The notes under the pieces were generated by a model. The model did not search any database. It saw nothing but the letters and a program-made list of their open reading frames with translations, and was not told where the DNA came from. Below, in pieces: positions 20,512 to 45,840 of a stretch of DNA of 64,000 bases (position 1 is its first letter; each line of letters begins with the position of its first letter). The position numbers and the translations under genes were made by a program. Location: contig JACSZT010000002.1 of NCBI GenBank assembly GCA_014332815.1, positions 62,001 to 126,000 of the forward strand. Direction: 5' to 3'. The DNA is from Weissella confusa. Its GTDB lineage: Bacteria; Bacillota; Bacilli; Lactobacillales; Lactobacillaceae.

Positions 20512-21930
20512 TTAACCCTTGTTACTGTGCTTAGCACCGTACAAGACGTAAACAATCGCTCCGATGACAACCCATCCAAGTGCCAAAATCAACGCATCCT
20601 TGTTCAATGAGAAGAACAATCCCAATGATGCAAGTGCTGAGATGATTGGCAATACAGGATACCAAGGCATCTTGTAACCTGAGTGGTCAATATCTTCACG
20701 CTTACGCAACTTCAAAATACCAACTGAAGCAACGATAAAGGCAATCAACGTACCAGCTGAAACCAAGTTAGCCAACATACCAACTGGGAAGACAGCACCC
20801 AAGATAACACCCAAAACCGTCAAAACAACCGTTGCGTTAAATGGCAAACCACGTGAATCCAACTTTGCGAATGCTTGTGGCATCAAACCATCTCGCCCGA
20901 ATGAGTAAACCAAACGTGATCCACCAATCATCAAGGCAATCAAACCTGAGAACATTCCGACCAAGGCCACAACTGAAAGCAAGTTAGCTGTGAACAAGTG
21001 ACCTGACTCACGCAATGCCCAAGCAGCAGGCTCAGCGTTGTTTGCGTACTTCGTGTACTTGTACATACCCGTCAAGACACCCGCAACACCAACGAACAAG
21101 ACCGTCGCAATCAACAACGTACCAATGATGGCACGTGGCATCGTGCGTTGCGCATCCTTAACTTCAGCTGAGTTAGCAGCAATCGTATCGAATCCGATGT
21201 AAGCGAAGAAGACTTGCGCTGCACCCATGAAGATACCGTGGACACCACCAAAGTTCGTGCCAGGCACGTGCTTAGGAACGAATGGCAACCAGTTTTGCAA
21301 TTGAATTGCCGTTGCACCAACAACGATGAACAAGATGATAACCGCAATCTTACCGATAACCAACCAGTTTTCAATCTTGGCTGCGCCCTTAACACCACGT
21401 GATACCAAGTGTCCGACAACCAACAATGACAAAGCACCGAACAAGTCGAACCAAGTACCATTACCTGCGTTAAACGATGCCGTTAGCGCCTTAGGAAGCG
21501 CAATTCCGAATCCTGATAAGAAGCCTTGGAAGTATGATGACCATGATGCTGAAATCAGCGCCAAGGCAATCAAGTACTCAGCCAAAACAGCCCATCCTGA
21601 CAACCAACCAATGAACTCACCGTAAATAACGTTTGCCCATGAGTAGATTGATCCGGCAAATGGCATGGCAGAAGCAAATTCTGAATATGCCAACGCTGAC
21701 AAACCAGCGATAATGGCGGCAATTACGAATGACAAGACAACCGCAGGACCTGCATAATCAGCGGCCACGATTCCAGGCATTGTAAAGATACCAGCTCCAA
21801 CAACCGTTCCAACACCCATAGCAATCATCTCACGCATGCCAAGGACTGGCTTCAAATGTCCATCCTTGTCAGCGTAGTTTTGCGGGTCTTCCTTTCGCGC
21901 CATGCGCGAGAACAAACTCTTTTGTTCCAT
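20512..21930 (-). CDS. APC-superfamily amino-acid permease (YfnA/CAT-like)
   Basis: This 472-residue protein has about 12 membrane segments and the APC signature 'MREMIAMGVGTVVGAGIFTMPG', then 'AYSEFASAMPFAGSIYSWANVIYGEFIGWLSGWAVLAEY'. The family (cationic/branched-chain type, as in BcaP and YfnA) gives no certain substrate. It is closely related to the protein at 44118-45515. The start has GAGGAG five bases upstream. Unlike three other permease genes here it has no leader terminator; a near-consensus promoter lies at 22012-22040. Confidence 0.85.
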   Translation of the reverse strand: MEQKSLFSRMARKEDPQNYADKDGHLKPVLGMREMIAMGVGTVVGAGIFTMPGIVAADYAGPAVVLSFVIAAIIAGLSALAYSEFASAMPFAGSIYSWANVIYGEFIGWLSGWAVLAEYLIALALISASWSSYFQGFLSGFGIALPKALTASFNAGNGTWFDLFGALSLLVVGHLVSRGVKGAAKIENWLVIGKIAVIILFIVVGATAIQLQNWLPFVPKHVPGTNFGGVHGIFMGAAQVFFAYIGFDTIAANSAEVKDAQRTMPRAIIGTLLIATVLFVGVAGVLTGMYKYTKYANNAEPAAWALRESGHLFTANLLSVVALVGMFSGLIALMIGGSRLVYSFGRDGLMPQAFAKLDSRGLPFNATVVLTVLGVILGAVFPVGMLANLVSAGTLIAFIVASVGILKLRKREDIDHSGYKMPWYPVLPIISALASLGLFFSLNKDALILALGWVVIGAIVYVLYGAKHSNKG

Positions 21931-22011
21931 AAAAACTCCTCGTTTCACTACTAAAACTAATAACCTAAAACACTATTATTGCACTCTAAATAATTAAAAA
22001 ATGATGTGATT

Positions 22012-22068
22012 ATTCTACATTTAAAACCGTTTACTGTCAACATAATTAGGCACCAGAAACGCCTAATT
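22012..22068 (-). promoter_or_regulatory. Promoter and inverted repeat of the permease gene
   Basis: TTGACA, 17 bp, TAGAAT on the minus strand (22012-22040). An 8-bp inverted repeat AATTAGGC / GCCTAATT (22044-22068) lies immediately upstream of the -35 and may bind a regulator. Confidence 0.7.
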
Positions 22069-22148
22069 CTCGGATATTTCCGACTTTTTATTAAATATTT
22101 TTCATAAAAACGTTTAACCGTCTGAGAAATTTTCCGTTCCTTTTTAGC

Positions 22149-22177
22149 TTGCGAACTAAAAGTAATAATGATAAACT
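22149..22177 (+). promoter_or_regulatory. Promoter of the threonine-type attenuator leader
   Basis: TTGCGA, 17 bp, TAAACT, about 36 bp ahead of the leader ATG. Confidence 0.55.
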
Positions 22178-22212
22178 TCTAATTATTAAGTACAGAAAGG
22201 GTGGTCGTCATC

Positions 22213-22299
22213 ATGATGAACGATTTTATTAACGCAAATCAATTTGTTGGTATGACAACCACCACCTCAACCACCATTTTCGCTGGTTGGGATATTTAA
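22213..22299 (+). CDS. Leader peptide, Thr-rich (attenuator of the downstream permease)
   Basis: This 28-codon ORF is preceded by an AGAAAGG Shine-Dalgarno. Codons 14-26 read MTTTTSTTIFAGW: six Thr and one Ser in seven consecutive codons (ACA ACC ACC ACC TCA ACC ACC, 22255-22275). It has the features of amino-acid biosynthesis leader peptides. Segment 1 (CAACCA, 22268-22273) lies in the Thr codons, segment 2 (CTGGTTGG, 22283-22290) in the last codons. No function as a peptide is expected. Confidence 0.8.
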   Translation: MMNDFINANQFVGMTTTTSTTIFAGWDI

Positions 22300-22384
22300 T
22301 GTGCTGTTAACAAACGATATTAACAGACCGTCCAACCAGTTCGACACCCTATCGCGGTGCGTGTTCGGTTGGACGGTCTTTTTG
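22268..22384 (+). promoter_or_regulatory. Ribosome-mediated transcription attenuator
   Basis: There are four segments. 1: 22268-22273 (CAACCA); 2: 22283-22290 (CTGGTTGG); 3: 22332-22339 (CCAACCAG); 4: 22367-22378. Pairings 1:2 (6 bp) and 3:4 (12-bp terminator) exclude 2:3 (8 bp plus two G-U). A ribosome stalled on the Thr codons would mask segment 1, allow 2:3 and stop terminator formation, so the permease is expressed when charged tRNA-Thr is low. This is inferred from sequence by analogy with trp/thr attenuators. Confidence 0.8.
22326..22384 (+). terminator. Attenuator terminator upstream of the permease
   Basis: GACCGTCCAACC (22326-22337) pairs perfectly with GGTTGGACGGTC (22367-22378), with inner CACC/GGTG pairing, followed by a T run. 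It ends 24 bases before the permease start codon. Confidence 0.85.
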
Positions 22385-22407
22385 TATACACAGAGGAGAA
22401 CAGGAAT

Positions 22408-23799
22408 ATGGCAGATAAAAAACCAGAGGAAGTGCAGCTTAAGCGCTCCCTGACGTCAAATCAAATGCAGATGATCGCCCTTGGTGGCACAATCGGAGTC
22501 GGACTCTTTATGGGATCAACTTCTACCATTAAGTGGACCGGACCTTCAGTATTGCTAGCCTACGCGTTCGTCGGGTTGCTTCTTTACCTGGTGATGCGTG
22601 CCTTGGGTGAGATGATTTTCATCAACCCAACGACTGGTTCATTTGCCGATTATGCAACCAATTACATTCACCCCTTGGCTGGTTACCTAACAAAGTGGAG
22701 TAACGTCTTCCAATATATCGTGGTTGGTATTAGTGAAGTCATTGCCGTTAGTACGTATCTGAATTATTGGTGGCCTAACCTACCTGGTTGGATTTCGGGT
22801 GTCGTCGTCATCGCGACTTTGACGCTGGCCAACCTCGCTTCGGCCAAAGCGTACGGTACGATGGAGTTCTACTTTGCCATGATCAAGGTGGTGACGATTA
22901 TTTTGATGATTGTCATTGGTGTAATGGTCATCTTCCTTGGTCTAGGTAATCACTGGCACGCAATTGGTCTTTCAAATCTTTGGTCACACGGCGGTTTCTT
23001 TACCGGCGGTGTAAAGGGATTCATCTTCTCACTTTCAATTATTGTTGGTTCATATCAAGGAATCGAAGTGCTTGGTATCACCGCTGGTGAAGCAGCTGAC
23101 CCACGCAACGCCATCGTTAAGTCAGTTAAGTCAGTTGTTTGGCGTATCTTGATTTTCTACATCGGTGCCATCTTCGTTATCGTGACGATTTACCCTTGGA
23201 ACCAATTGGCTGCCGTCGGGTCACCATTCGTTGAGACGTTCTCAAAGGTTGGTATCGCCGGAGCTGCTGGAATCATTAACTTTGTTGTGTTGACGGCTGC
23301 CATGTCAGGTGCCAACTCTGGTATCTACAGTTCAAGCCGTATGTTGTACAAGTTGTCTCGTGACAAGGAAACGTCAGGCATCTTCCAAAAGTTGTCATCA
23401 CACCAAGTCCCTTACGTTTCAATCTTGGGAATTTCAGGTGGTATCTTGCTTGGTTTGATTTTGAACACTGTGCTATCAATCTACAGCAAGTCTACGGCTA
23501 ACATCTTCGTACTTGTTTATAGCTCAAGTGTGTTGCCTGGTATGGTGCCTTGGTTCGTTATTTTGTGGTCAGAATTGTCATTCCGCCGTTCGAACAAAGA
23601 ACTGCTAAAGGATCACCCATTCAAAATGCCGCTTTATCCACTATCAAATTACTTTGCCATCTTCGCTTTGTTGCTAATCGTTGTCTTCATGTTTATCAAT
23701 CCTGAGACGCGTATCTCAGTTATGATTGGTGCCGGATTCTTGATTTTGCTATCAATTTTCTTCTTCGCTACGAATAAGCACAAGCAAGTTGCTGAATAA
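22408..23799 (+). CDS. AAT-family amino-acid permease, probably threonine/serine
   Basis: This 463-residue protein has 12 predicted membrane segments and the AAT signature 'MQMIALGGTIGVGLFMGSTSTIKWTGPSVLLAY', with 'RALGEMIFINPTTGSFADYA'. Members include E. coli ThrP (YifK), a threonine/serine:proton symporter, and GabP. The Thr-rich leader peptide and attenuator upstream point to threonine (or serine) as substrate. The start is the ATG at 22408 after GAGGAGAACAGGAAT; the longer frame runs back into the terminator. Confidence 0.85.
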   Translation: MADKKPEEVQLKRSLTSNQMQMIALGGTIGVGLFMGSTSTIKWTGPSVLLAYAFVGLLLYLVMRALGEMIFINPTTGSFADYATNYIHPLAGYLTKWSNVFQYIVVGISEVIAVSTYLNYWWPNLPGWISGVVVIATLTLANLASAKAYGTMEFYFAMIKVVTIILMIVIGVMVIFLGLGNHWHAIGLSNLWSHGGFFTGGVKGFIFSLSIIVGSYQGIEVLGITAGEAADPRNAIVKSVKSVVWRILIFYIGAIFVIVTIYPWNQLAAVGSPFVETFSKVGIAGAAGIINFVVLTAAMSGANSGIYSSSRMLYKLSRDKETSGIFQKLSSHQVPYVSILGISGGILLGLILNTVLSIYSKSTANIFVLVYSSSVLPGMVPWFVILWSELSFRRSNKELLKDHPFKMPLYPLSNYFAIFALLLIVVFMFINPETRISVMIGAGFLILLSIFFFATNKHKQVAE

Positions 23800-29260: not shown

Positions 29261-30586
29261 TTACTGCTTATTCTTGTAGTAAAGGTAAACCGGCACGCCG
29301 ACACCCACGAAGATGAATGAAATCAAGACCATCGTAAAGCTTGAGATCAATGTGTTTACCAAAATGAACAATGCGCCCAAGATGGCAACCAATGGGATGA
29401 ATGGGAATAGCGGTACGCTAAACACTTCCGGATCCTTTTCTAAACCAGCCTTCTTATTACGGGCACGCAAGATGAAAATACCAAAGAACGTCGCCGTGTA
29501 GAACAACCAGATAACAAACACAGCCATGTCTGACAACCAGTCAGCCTTTGATGTGAACATCAATGCACCAGCCAATACAGCCGTCGTCCAAAGTGCGCCA
29601 ACCGGTGCTTGCGCCTTGTTCAACGTGCCCAAGAACTTAGGCAACACACCATCATGTGACATGGCATAAACCATTCGAGGGAATGCTAGCATCTTACCAT
29701 TCAACGTTCCGGCCATTGAGACCAAGATACCAACTGACAACAAGCGACCACCTAACTCACCGAACGCTGACTTAGCCACTTCGAATGTGACGTTGTTGCC
29801 CAACTTCACGATTTGATCAGCTGGCATTGCACGGTAAACACCGTATGACACACCAACGTAGGCAATCATAACAATCAAGACACCCCAAATGATTGAACGT
29901 GGAATGTTACGACGTGGGTCCTTCAACTCACCACCCAAGTTCGTCAACGTTGCCCAACCATCGTACGCAAACAACGTTGCCAACACAGCCATTCCAAAGT
30001 TACCGGTTGCCGTTGATGACAATTGTGAAACCGTTTGGCCCAACGCATCAGCCTTACCGAAGAACAAACCGAACACCATCAACACGGCAATCGGAATCAA
30101 CTTAATACTTGTTGTTGCGACTTGGAACATTGAGGCAATGCGATTATCCAATGAGTTCATCGCCGTCACTAATACCAACGCTGCCAAACCAATCCAGACG
30201 ACGCTGCTCTCTGGTAACCCAAAGAAATTCGCAAACAAGTAGGCAAAGTAAGCTGAGATTGAGGCCACAATAGCTGGTGCATAGACAACAACCTGCGTCC
30301 AGCCCGTCAAGAAGCCCCAAAACTTACCATAAAGCTTTTCCATGTAGATGTAGATACCACCCGTTTGCGGGATGTGTGCCCCGATTTCAGAAATCGTCAA
30401 ACCGGCTGCCAACGTTACCACACCACCAGCAATCCAGGCCCACAAAGCACCCGTTGTGCTACCAGCGGTCTCCAAAACTTGCCCTTGCTTGAAGAAAATA
30501 CCTGATCCAATAACCGTTCCGATAACGATTGAAATACCCGTCCAAACACCCATTGAGCGTTTCAAATGTCGTTCATTGCCTACCAT
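29261..30586 (-). CDS. LAT/SteT-like amino-acid permease, probably serine/threonine exchanger
   Basis: This 441-residue protein has 12 predicted membrane segments and 'GVWTGISIVIGTVIGSGIFFKQGQVLETAGS', 'IPQTGGIYIYMEKLYGKFWGFLTGWTQVV', characteristic of the LAT branch that includes B. subtilis SteT, a serine/threonine exchanger. A Thr/Ser-rich leader peptide and attenuator upstream independently point to the same substrates. The start at 30586 has GAGGT seven bases upstream; the longer frame reads through the terminator. Confidence 0.85.
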   Translation of the reverse strand: MVGNERHLKRSMGVWTGISIVIGTVIGSGIFFKQGQVLETAGSTTGALWAWIAGGVVTLAAGLTISEIGAHIPQTGGIYIYMEKLYGKFWGFLTGWTQVVVYAPAIVASISAYFAYLFANFFGLPESSVVWIGLAALVLVTAMNSLDNRIASMFQVATTSIKLIPIAVLMVFGLFFGKADALGQTVSQLSSTATGNFGMAVLATLFAYDGWATLTNLGGELKDPRRNIPRSIIWGVLIVMIAYVGVSYGVYRAMPADQIVKLGNNVTFEVAKSAFGELGGRLLSVGILVSMAGTLNGKMLAFPRMVYAMSHDGVLPKFLGTLNKAQAPVGALWTTAVLAGALMFTSKADWLSDMAVFVIWLFYTATFFGIFILRARNKKAGLEKDPEVFSVPLFPFIPLVAILGALFILVNTLISSFTMVLISFIFVGVGVPVYLYYKNKQ

Positions 30587-30627
30587 AATGTCTACCTCAT
30601 CTTTCCTTAAAGCCCCTACTAAGTATA

Positions 30628-30698
30628 CAAAAAAGCCACCCAACCCCTGGTATGCCTATACAGTCTGTGTATAGGGGTACCAACATGGTTGAGTGGCT
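30628..30698 (-). terminator. Attenuator terminator upstream of the SteT-like permease
   Basis: The minus-strand AGCCACTCAACC (30687-30698) pairs with GGTTGGGTGGCT (30634-30645, one G-U) and continues inward with ACCCC / GGGGT and CCTATACA / TGTATAGG. TTTTTT follows. Confidence 0.85.
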
Positions 30699-30758
30699 TT
30701 GTGAAATACAATTATTATTGCACGTCAAAGTTACTCAACCACAAACGGGTGGTTGAGT
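30634..30758 (-). promoter_or_regulatory. Ribosome-mediated transcription attenuator
   Basis: Minus-strand segments. 1: ACTCAACCAC (30749-30758), in the Asp-Ser-Thr-Thr codons; 2: GTGGTTGAGT (30733-30742), a perfect 10-bp partner of 1 with a 6-nt loop; 3: ACTCAACCA (30686-30694), a perfect 9-bp partner of 2; 4: 30634-30645, the terminator 3' arm. A ribosome held on the Thr/Ser codons would mask segment 1, let 2 pair with 3 and prevent termination. Confidence 0.82.
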
Positions 30759-30804
30759 CAGAGGACGTCGTCATGATCATAGCTGTGCTAATTCGATTAT
30801 TCAT
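30715..30804 (-). CDS. Leader peptide, Thr/Ser-rich (attenuator of the SteT-like permease)
   Basis: This 29-codon ORF has a strong AAAGGAGGG Shine-Dalgarno. Residues 11-23 read MTTSSDSTTRLWL: seven Thr/Ser codons in eight positions. The final TCA ACC ACC codons are identical to those of the leader at 22213. It is too short and too tightly built into the RNA fold to be an ordinary protein gene. Confidence 0.82.
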   Translation of the reverse strand: MNNRISTAMIMTTSSDSTTRLWLSNFDVQ

Positions 30805-44117: not shown

Positions 44118-45515
44118 CTAATTCATTCGTGAATGTTTCATGCCGTACGTTAAGTACAAAATAATTCCCAATACAAACCACACTAGCGCTGCCACTAATG
44201 TCTCAAGATGTAATTGTGTAATCAAGAAAAACGTGAACAACGCTGACAAAATTGGCAATACCGGATAGCCTGGCATCTTGTAACCGTCTTGGCGCACATC
44301 CGCACGCTTACGCAATGGTAAGATTCCCAATGACACCACCATAAACGCCAACAATGTACCCATATTCACCAAATCAACCAACTTCTCTAGCGGTACGAAT
44401 CCACCAAAGAACGCCACGACAATCGTTGCAATTCCCAACGCACGTTCTGGCTCACCTTGCTTGCTCAACTTGCCTAGTCCACCTGGGAGCAGACCGTCAC
44501 GACCAACAGCATAAATCAATCGTGAAGAAGCATATAGCATCGTCACCATCATTGTGAACATCCCAATCAACGCACCAATTGTGATGATTAAGGCGGCCCA
44601 ATGTTGGCCAACTTGTTGCATCGCAAATGCTGCCGGATCAGCGACATTCAACTTTGAGTAATGCACCATTCCCGTCAAAACTAGTGCAACTAACCCGTAC
44701 AAAACAGCGGCCACAATCAATGTCCCGATAATCCCAATTGGCATATCACGCTTCGGATTTTTCACCTCAGCAGCCGTCGCTGACAAAGCATCAAACCCTA
44801 GAAAGGCGAAGAACACCATCGACGTTCCAGCGAAGACACCTTGAATACCGAATGCACCATCCATGCGCTTGGGAATTAACGGGGTCAAATTATCAGCTTT
44901 GATAAAGAAAAATCCGACAATAATGAACAATATAATAATACCGATTTTTAAGAGCACCATGGCATTTTGAACGCGCTTAGACTCGGTCATTCCCCCTCGC
45001 AACAGCAGCCCAATTAACAAGACGATCACAACTGCCACAATATTCACGACCGTTCCTTCAGCCGGATTATAAGCACCTGACAACGCGGTTGGCAACTTGA
45101 AGAATGGCGACATCAGATTAGCAAAGTAGGCTGACCATCCTGTCGAAACAGCTGCCACGCCCAAGGCATATTCCAAAATCAATGCCCAGCCAAGAATCCA
45201 TCCAATTACCTCACCAAAGATAACATTACCGTATGAATAAGCTGATCCAGCTACCGGCATTGCCGAAGCCGTTTCAGAATATGCCATCGCCACCAACCCA
45301 GACACAACAGCTGCGATAATAAAACTAAAAATCACACCTGGTCCGGCTGTCGTTGCAGCAACCGTACCTGGCAAAATAAAAATACCAGTTCCAATAACCG
45401 CCCCAATTCCTAATCCAATTAAATCTTTAGCCGTTAAAGACTTCGAAAAATCCGCATCGCTCTTCAAATAAGTCTCTAACGATTCTTTACGAAACATCCG
45501 CTTTAGTAACGACAT
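44118..45515 (-). CDS. APC-superfamily amino-acid permease under Phe/Tyr-type attenuation
   Basis: This 465-residue protein has about 12 membrane segments and 'LTAKDLIGLGIGAVIGTGIFILPGTVAATTAGPG', 'YSETASAMPVAGSAYSYGNVIFGEVIGWILGWALILEYALG'. By family it is a CAT/YfnA-like permease similar to 20512-21930. The Phe/Tyr-rich leader peptide suggests that aromatic amino acids, phenylalanine first, regulate it and may be its substrates. The start at 45515 has GAGGTG seven bases upstream. Confidence 0.83.
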   Translation of the reverse strand: MSLLKRMFRKESLETYLKSDADFSKSLTAKDLIGLGIGAVIGTGIFILPGTVAATTAGPGVIFSFIIAAVVSGLVAMAYSETASAMPVAGSAYSYGNVIFGEVIGWILGWALILEYALGVAAVSTGWSAYFANLMSPFFKLPTALSGAYNPAEGTVVNIVAVVIVLLIGLLLRGGMTESKRVQNAMVLLKIGIIILFIIVGFFFIKADNLTPLIPKRMDGAFGIQGVFAGTSMVFFAFLGFDALSATAAEVKNPKRDMPIGIIGTLIVAAVLYGLVALVLTGMVHYSKLNVADPAAFAMQQVGQHWAALIITIGALIGMFTMMVTMLYASSRLIYAVGRDGLLPGGLGKLSKQGEPERALGIATIVVAFFGGFVPLEKLVDLVNMGTLLAFMVVSLGILPLRKRADVRQDGYKMPGYPVLPILSALFTFFLITQLHLETLVAALVWFVLGIILYLTYGMKHSRMN

Positions 45516-45552: not shown

Positions 45553-45599
45553 AAATAAAAAGCACGCATCAGATACCAATTCAGTATCCGATACGTGCT
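45553..45599 (-). terminator. Attenuator terminator upstream of the permease
   Basis: The minus-strand AGCACGTATCGGATAC (45584-45599) pairs with GTATCTGATGCGTGCT (45561-45576), 16 bp with two G-U or near pairs, followed by TTTTTATTT. Confidence 0.82.
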
Positions 45600-45712
45600 A
45601 AATGAGTTTCATACAAACTAATTGCTTAGTCGTCTGATGTCTCACACACTCGGATACTTTACCGTCATCCGAGTGTTCAACGCAAAATAACTTTACGATT
45701 GATTCGGATGAC
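45561..45712 (-). promoter_or_regulatory. Five-segment ribosome-mediated attenuator
   Basis: Minus-strand segments. A: GTCATCCGA (45704-45712, starting in the leader stop codon); B: ACTCGGATGAC (45664-45674); C: GTATCCGAGT (45648-45657); D: terminator 5' arm with TCGGATAC (45584-45591); E: terminator 3' arm (45561-45576). A:B (9 bp) frees C to pair with D (8 bp, antiterminator). If A is covered, B:C (8 bp) forms and D:E terminates. Confidence 0.78.
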
Positions 45713-45768
45713 TAACCGAAAAACGTAAAGTAGAAAAACGCTTGCGTTGATGACATAACTAATTGCAT
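45712..45768 (-). CDS. Leader peptide, Phe/Tyr-rich (attenuator of the permease)
   Basis: This 18-codon ORF starts at 45768 with AAAGGG nine to ten bases upstream (an in-frame ATG at 45777 is too close to it). It encodes MQLVMSSTQAFFYFTFFG: five Phe and one Tyr among codons 11-17. The composition recalls the enterobacterial PheA leader. Its stop codon begins segment A of the attenuator. Confidence 0.82.
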   Translation of the reverse strand: MQLVMSSTQAFFYFTFFG

Positions 45769-45840
45769 GAATTTCATTCCCTTTGACTTTGATTAACGCC
45801 GATTCACTTTGAATCAACGGCCCCTTTAAATGACCCCCTA

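Follow-up and report, generated by a model that had tools for sequence, protein, structure and literature searches.

The window, the whole 64,000-nucleotide stretch of Weissella confusa DNA analysed here, carries on its forward strand a gene for a 463-residue permease of the AAT/APC family (22408 to 23799), in front of which lie a short open reading frame and an intrinsic terminator. The identification of the product as an AAT permease in the preliminary description is borne out by its matches to PF00324 and to NF047867, the model of the Thr/Ser transporter ThrP; the latter is the best NCBIfam match at 568.6 bits, below the cut-off of 850, and the permease can be termed ThrP-like by this nearest model. 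It is 100% identical to a permease of Weissella confusa DSM 20196 (locus L056), and, among proteins of solved structure, a sequence search found a single relative with E of 1e-10 or better, the lysine-specific permease 9eyd. The leader ORF (22213 to 22299, forward strand) runs for 28 codons from the ATG at 22213 to the TAA at 22297 to 22299, encodes the peptide MMNDFINANQFVGMTTTTSTTIFAGWDI and is preceded by a Shine-Dalgarno (SD) sequence, AAAGGGTGG (22196 to 22204), with a calculated duplex of -7.5 kcal/mol with the anti-SD. Its threonine run, ACA ACC ACC ACC TCA ACC ACC (TTTTSTT), occupies 22255 to 22275. A probable promoter, TTGCGA and TAAACT separated by 17 nt with a TG before the latter, can be read from the sequence at 22149 to 22177 and is absent from the output of a consensus promoter scan. 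The predicted terminator, a hairpin with a T-run (22325 to 22384, -30.9 kcal/mol), ends at about 22384, ahead of the permease ATG at 22408. Given that the gene 5' of the leader (20512 to 21948) is divergent from the permease, this terminator cannot serve that gene; it is part of the permease's own transcript, and the permease can be expressed only if transcription continues beyond it.

Both the threonine-rich ORF and the terminator upstream of the permease were thus found where the preliminary description had placed them. The run taken by itself is weak evidence for an attenuator and is not used as proof: six Thr in seven codons occur at two sites of the window, counting both strands and all frames, and 3 of 40 Markov-simulated windows contain a run of equal density. 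The second such run, near 60.7 kb, was considered as another leader and set aside, since no leader context is visible there by eye. Conservation, by contrast, is strong evidence. Thermodynamic folding, which had been proposed as a check, gave -74.1 kcal/mol for 22149 to 22407, while shuffled sequences averaged -56.1 (z -4.08) and none of 200 reached so low an energy.

The three pairings proposed from the letters are indeed complementary: CAACCA at 22268 to 22273 with TGGTTG at 22284 to 22289, CTGGTTGG at 22283 to 22290 with CCAACCAG at 22332 to 22339, and GACCGTCCAACC at 22326 to 22337 with GGTTGGACGGTC at 22367 to 22378. They define region 1, the last Thr codons (22265 to 22275), identified by folding, a partner-swap test and alignment; its partner region 2, CTGGTTGGG (22283 to 22291), identified by partner swap; and region 3 (22325 to 22339), the 5' arm of the terminator, for which partner swap and modelled folding indicate an antiterminator pairing with region 2. 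A further pairing, overlooked in the preliminary description and termed stem A, joins the SD region (22200 to 22211) to the first Thr codons (22252 to 22263).

Relatives of the permease were scanned upstream at 105 loci, duplicates included, of which 25 came from the same genome and genus and 80 from named genomes, the latter being the 80 with the most similar permeases out of 546. With duplicates omitted, 41 leaders were picked by hand and 40 retained after a mis-parsed one (L094) was dropped; the weaker Thr-rich ORFs of L043 and L083 were not counted. These 40 come from five named genera of the Lactobacillaceae: Weissella, Furfurilactobacillus, Pediococcus (P. pentosaceus), Ligilactobacillus and Limosilactobacillus. 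Throughout them a Thr/Ser-rich run is kept, in variants such as TTTTSTT, TTTSTTT and TSTSTTTT, whereas the peptide's N-terminal portion is freely variable; in three (L082, L091 and L103) the run is thin, with three Thr or so. An intrinsic terminator stands between the leader stop and the permease in 40/40. The strongest SD-ATG combination in any frame within 110 nt before the run is in frame with it and open to it in all 40 leaders and all 25 groups; the test is softened by the selection of the set, which required some start in frame, though not that this be the strongest. The first base of the stop codon falls between -7 and +28 of the first base of region 2 (median +3, n=40). Homologues lacking the run or the alternative stems, named in the preliminary description as what would speak against it, are not what these 40 leaders present: they keep both, with compensating changes.

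A consensus structure for the 30-sequence alignment A1 was uninformative, as RNAalifold kept only six pairs, belonging to 1:2, because the terminators do not align across genera. For this reason a partner-swap test was applied, in which each arm was matched to its true partner and, in turn, to those of other clades, using 15 clade representatives, not fully independent of one another, and 20,000 permutations. Permutations as good as the true partners numbered 0 for stem A, 73 for 1:2, 2 for 2:3 and 0 for 3:4, and the own partner exceeded the median swap in 22, 17, 24 and 27 of 27 rows respectively. In all four pairings the true partners match better than exchanged ones, 1:2 being the weakest. 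Direct covariation, which an alignment had been expected to reveal, is thin for 1:2. The helix is 91.3% paired in alignment A3 but contains a single double change; as many paired cells arose in 31 of 500 shuffles, and the covariation score was attained in 6 of 500. The consensus of eight aligned Weissella leaders has 42 pairs, 5 of which have changed at both bases; four of these 5 belong to the terminator. Examples of changed pairs are the replacement of GGTTGG/CCAACC by GGCTGG/CCAGCC in Furfurilactobacillus (L058) and by GGTTGAGG/CCTCAATT in L033. In Ligilactobacillus hayakitensis (L069) one Thr codon of the run has become Ile (ATC) with a matching base change in region 2, which indicates that a single codon of the run can yield to the needs of RNA pairing. 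ACC is the commonest Thr codon in the 25 group representatives (92 of 157) and the rarest in seven genes of the window (34 of 247, with ACG commonest at 121 of 247), and the pairing constraint is a sufficient reason for this preference in the leaders.

The effect of ribosome position was modelled for 26 leaders as equilibrium folding, not kinetics, on transcripts cut 12 bases short of the terminator hairpin's end, with the ribosome footprint set on each codon. A ribosome on the first four run codons gave 7.65 expected 2:3 pairs on average, against 0.29 for one on the stop codon and 2.88 for untranslated RNA. The stalled ribosome gave more 2:3 pairing than the terminating one in 26/26 as counted (L124 having 0.0 for both), and more than untranslated RNA in 23/26; at the stop codon the value was 0.0 in 25/26. 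The exceptions are L124, without an antiterminator, L065, with little (2.8 pairs), and L032, in which the stop lies at +28 and the antiterminator persists at the stop codon with 7.5 pairs. For W. confusa itself, 8.6 pairs are predicted for stalls up to the Ser codon, 6.6 and 2.4 at the last two Thr codons and none from the Ile codon on. Without translation, too, the W. confusa RNA is predicted to prefer 2:3 at equilibrium (8.6 pairs), which means that an untranslated leader need not terminate.

Taken together, the anatomy, the conservation, the compensating changes and the modelled folding argue for ribosome-mediated transcription attenuation driven by starvation for Thr-tRNA, a reading to which a probability of about 0.86 is assigned. 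Transcription would start between the divergent genes, and the Thr-rich leader would be encoded first. With ample Thr-tRNA, the ribosome would reach the stop codon beside region 2 and cover region 2, 3:4 would form, and transcription would terminate before the permease gene. When charged Thr-tRNA is scarce, the ribosome would stall on the first Thr codons and cover region 1; region 2 would then pair with region 3 as an antiterminator and the permease would be transcribed. In the absence of a ribosome, the leader SD would pair with the first Thr codons, which probably limits re-initiation on the finished transcript. It is suggested from these features that the leader senses Thr-tRNA in vivo, that the permease takes up threonine and that the SD stem plays this role. 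Such an attenuator would support annotating the permease as a Thr transporter, which is useful in bacteria living on imported amino acids.

The presence of serine in the run raises the possibility that the leader senses Ser besides Thr, its Ser codon acting as a second regulatory codon. At least one Ser is found in the nine-residue run of each of the 25 group representatives, the permease's nearest model is a Thr/Ser transporter and the second leader of the window is a Ser/Thr one. However, the TCA codon sits in region 1 (CCTCAACC), where pairing with region 2 explains it, the W. confusa run has one Ser against six Thr, and the T-boxes found before the same kind of permease in a sister clade specify Thr by eye; dual sensing is a possible but doubtful addition. 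It is also conceivable that any slow translation, irrespective of the amino acid, is sensed, as in the W. confusa model an antiterminator forms wherever the ribosome stalls ahead of the last Thr codons, and in untranslated RNA too. This is unlikely, given that it is a Thr run that is kept and not the peptide's N-terminal portion, that 17 of the 26 untranslated RNAs form fewer than three antiterminator pairs, and that the leaders of other transporters carry other amino acids.

Nascent-peptide arrest, by which TnaC senses tryptophan, could in principle let this leader sense free Thr, a run of identical residues being able to act in the exit tunnel. There is no motif across genera beyond the run, however, and the distance from start to run varies; arrest at high Thr would moreover induce the gene, which would be the wrong sense for uptake, and this reading is considered very improbable. 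Least credible of all is that the permease leader houses a T-box or some other aptamer, or that its terminator is unregulated. T-boxes are the usual device here, with seven over cut-off in the W. confusa genome, one of them before thrS, but no Rfam family reaches its gathering score in the window, and the T-box model RF00230, rejected for this locus, is unmatched in 21900 to 22500 even at E values up to 5. A terminator free of regulation would shut off the only gene of its transcript, and would not keep the competing pairing 2:3. Attenuation by a ribosome stalled at Thr codons remains the preferred reading of the locus.

The distribution of the leader was followed with a model, R1, built from 30 leaders and run with strict filters. 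In the genome of origin it has one significant match (E 1e-9), the next being at 0.38. Among 301 Lactobacillaceae genomes, 38 contain a match with E up to 0.1, and 36 matches have E 2.2e-4 or better; by coordinates 35 of these 36 lie just upstream of the permease, and in the 36th (G186) the leader is at a contig end. Five matches at E 0.02 to 0.1 were rejected: one is a Ser/Thr leader (L184, genome G017), one lies inside a long ORF (L185), and in L186, L187 and L188 no clear leader was recognised. A search of 295 genomes of the order from 74 genera, with strict filters and E up to 0.01, gave six matches, all in Lactobacillaceae. One genome of genus g9 carries the leader with a permease of 83% identity (G154:C1:166250-167773), and no other sampled genome of that genus is among the 38 with R1 matches; horizontal transfer of the leader-permease unit is possible.

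In a tree of 90 permeases, midpoint-rooted and containing several long branches, the 40 rows with a leader all belong to one group of 68 (support 100/99). The scan found no leader for 28 of these 68, a point against the attenuator reading, the mis-parsed L094 being counted among the 28, and the presence of the leader requires at least seven changes on the tree, which may be read as one gain plus losses. The seven rows with a T-box are all in the other group, of 22, whose remaining 15 rows have neither device. Of 16 loci submitted to a T-box search, four (L093, L108, L114 and L119) have a T-box at gathering score and three more (L121, L122 and L129) have the T-box core by motif only; motif matches at -449 in L034 and L070 were left uncounted. 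With the specifier position taken as GAA...XXXA from the accessible legend in PMC5794164, the four alignments show by eye the Thr codon ACU. The same codon is read by eye in the thrS T-box of W. confusa (L133, G000:C21:145502-145701), where the script pattern picked other triplets. As Thr-specifying T-boxes occupy the same place in the sister clade, Thr-tRNA is the likely signal of the leader. The same kind of permease would then offer a clean natural case of two unrelated sensors of tRNA charging, and two kinds of Thr-tRNA sensor, the leader attenuator and the thrS T-box, seem to coexist in the W. confusa genome.

Two more leaders were recognised in the window, both on the reverse strand. One, MNNRISTAMIMTTSSDSTTRLWLSNFDVQ (30715 to 30804), has a predicted terminator at 30635 to 30697 and precedes a LAT-family amino-acid transporter (29294 to 30586, 3' end approximate); a weak R1 match at 30727 to 30768 falls in this attenuator, the region 2 of which is GTGGTTGAG. 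A Ser/Thr leader with region 2 and terminator is present here (30586 to 30804) and at L191 to L208 and L210, with the run TTSSDSTT and, in relatives, TSSDSTV, SRSTSV and STTSTSS. Thirty LAT-family loci from 28 genomes of the genus comprise 15 with a Ser/Thr leader, four with an Asn/Asp leader, four weak Ser/Thr calls (L200, L203, L205 and L206) and seven with none. Sixteen further upstream stretches, of a second LAT paralogue, yielded 13 Asn/Asp leaders (for example MFSFVNNNNNNDRFNSTQKVIGRFRVTLEL) and three without; poly-Asn or Asn/Asp leaders with an attenuator before this paralogue are seen at L213, L218 to L229, L231 and L233 to L235. The stop of the W. confusa Asn leader (L221 to L224) lies well beyond region 2, too far downstream for a terminating ribosome to cover it, and 9.5 pairs of 2:3 are modelled at the stop; in L225 the stop is beside region 2. 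An Asn model, R2, matches 33 of the 301 family genomes at E 0.01, with eight clear matches (E 5e-12 or better), all in the genus of Weissella, and the others at E 2.7e-4 and weaker. At one site of the W. confusa assembly (L274, G000:C18:189962-190012) an Asn leader runs directly into another coding sequence, gnd-like by eye, without its transporter, a rearrangement or a misassembly in an assembly rated 66.5% complete.

The other, a Phe/Tyr leader, MQLVMSSTQAFFYFTFFG (45712 to 45768), precedes a BcaP-like transporter (44205 to 45515, 3' end approximate). Among 20 orthologues of at least 66% identity, an ORF with an F-rich end is found in 16 (L245 to L260) and none in L261 to L264; for 14 of the 16, L250 and L260 excepted, the listed candidates include an SD-like start of -5.5 kcal/mol or lower. 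In the window (45557 to 45793) and at L245 to L260, a chain of five alternately complementary segments, against four in the Thr leader, is seen by eye before the terminator. No such leader was found in the upstream stretches L237 and L239 to L243, which belong to the ten long transporter matches in the W. confusa genome. The balance tilts somewhat towards a broader view, in which Weissella and its relatives would carry a set of leader attenuators on amino-acid transporters (for Thr in several Lactobacillaceae genera and, in Weissella, for Ser/Thr, Asn/Asp and Phe) beside T-boxes such as that of thrS, Asn and Ser being new specificities and the Thr codons serving as a latch on the leader SD.

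Leader-peptide attenuation is textbook knowledge for the biosynthesis operons of proteobacteria. The W. confusa leader belongs by structure to this class, with a short ORF containing a run of regulatory codons and predicted to be translated, conserved and mutually exclusive pairings 1:2 (the weakest), 2:3 and 3:4, a stop codon placed such that a terminating ribosome would cover region 2, and an intrinsic terminator between leader and gene; its link to the charging of Thr-tRNA is a proposal drawn from these features. One of the closest known systems is thrL, which belongs to a gammaproteobacterial biosynthesis operon and has Thr and Ile codons. Its Rfam family, RF00506 (Thr_leader), gives the best-scoring match here, over the whole model, at 19.9 bits and E 0.31 against a gathering score of 55, and identity with that family was rejected on this score. 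Both have a Thr-rich leader, overlapping pairings and a terminator, but thrL serves biosynthesis whereas the W. confusa leader precedes an uptake gene. The four-segment logic is also that of the E. coli trp leader, where SD pairing shuts off leader translation; the difference is that in W. confusa the partner of the SD is the regulatory codon run itself.

For Firmicutes, scattered reports describe such attenuation: the accessible parts of PMC2965389 report His leader peptides in bacilli and exchanges between T-boxes and leader peptides, and those of PMC5794164 a Leu-rich ilv attenuator in S. aureus, citing predicted ones in Lactococcus and Streptococcus. As proposed for W. confusa, these leaders occupy sites at which a T-box could have been anticipated, and stalling opens an antiterminator, but the amino acids, the genes (hisS copies, biosynthesis) and the clades are different. 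The Thr T-boxes before transporters, described for an APC transporter of the Bacillus cereus group in the text available from PMC2494555 and seen here in Leuconostoc and others, share the permease family in the sister clade and probably the signal, but bind tRNA directly and have no leader ORF. The specificities listed in the portion seen of PMC3766115 (2013) are His, Leu, Thr and Trp in Rfam, with Ile/Val and Phe known besides, and Asn and Ser are absent from that list; a Cys attenuator candidate in Rhodobacterales appears in the excerpt of PMC8632094, and threonine goes unmentioned in that of PMC4833913. No Lactobacillaceae Thr leader attenuator was found in the titles and abstracts among the literature matches listed, in which subscription papers are little covered. 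As far as this literature goes, the location before a permease in Lactobacillaceae, the predicted pairing, seen across genera, of the SD with regulatory codons, the T-box that the sister clade has as a counterpart and the accompanying putative Ser/Thr, Asn and Phe leaders appear to be new. Set beside the known systems, attenuation at this locus would control uptake, and would do so in several genera of the Lactobacillaceae.
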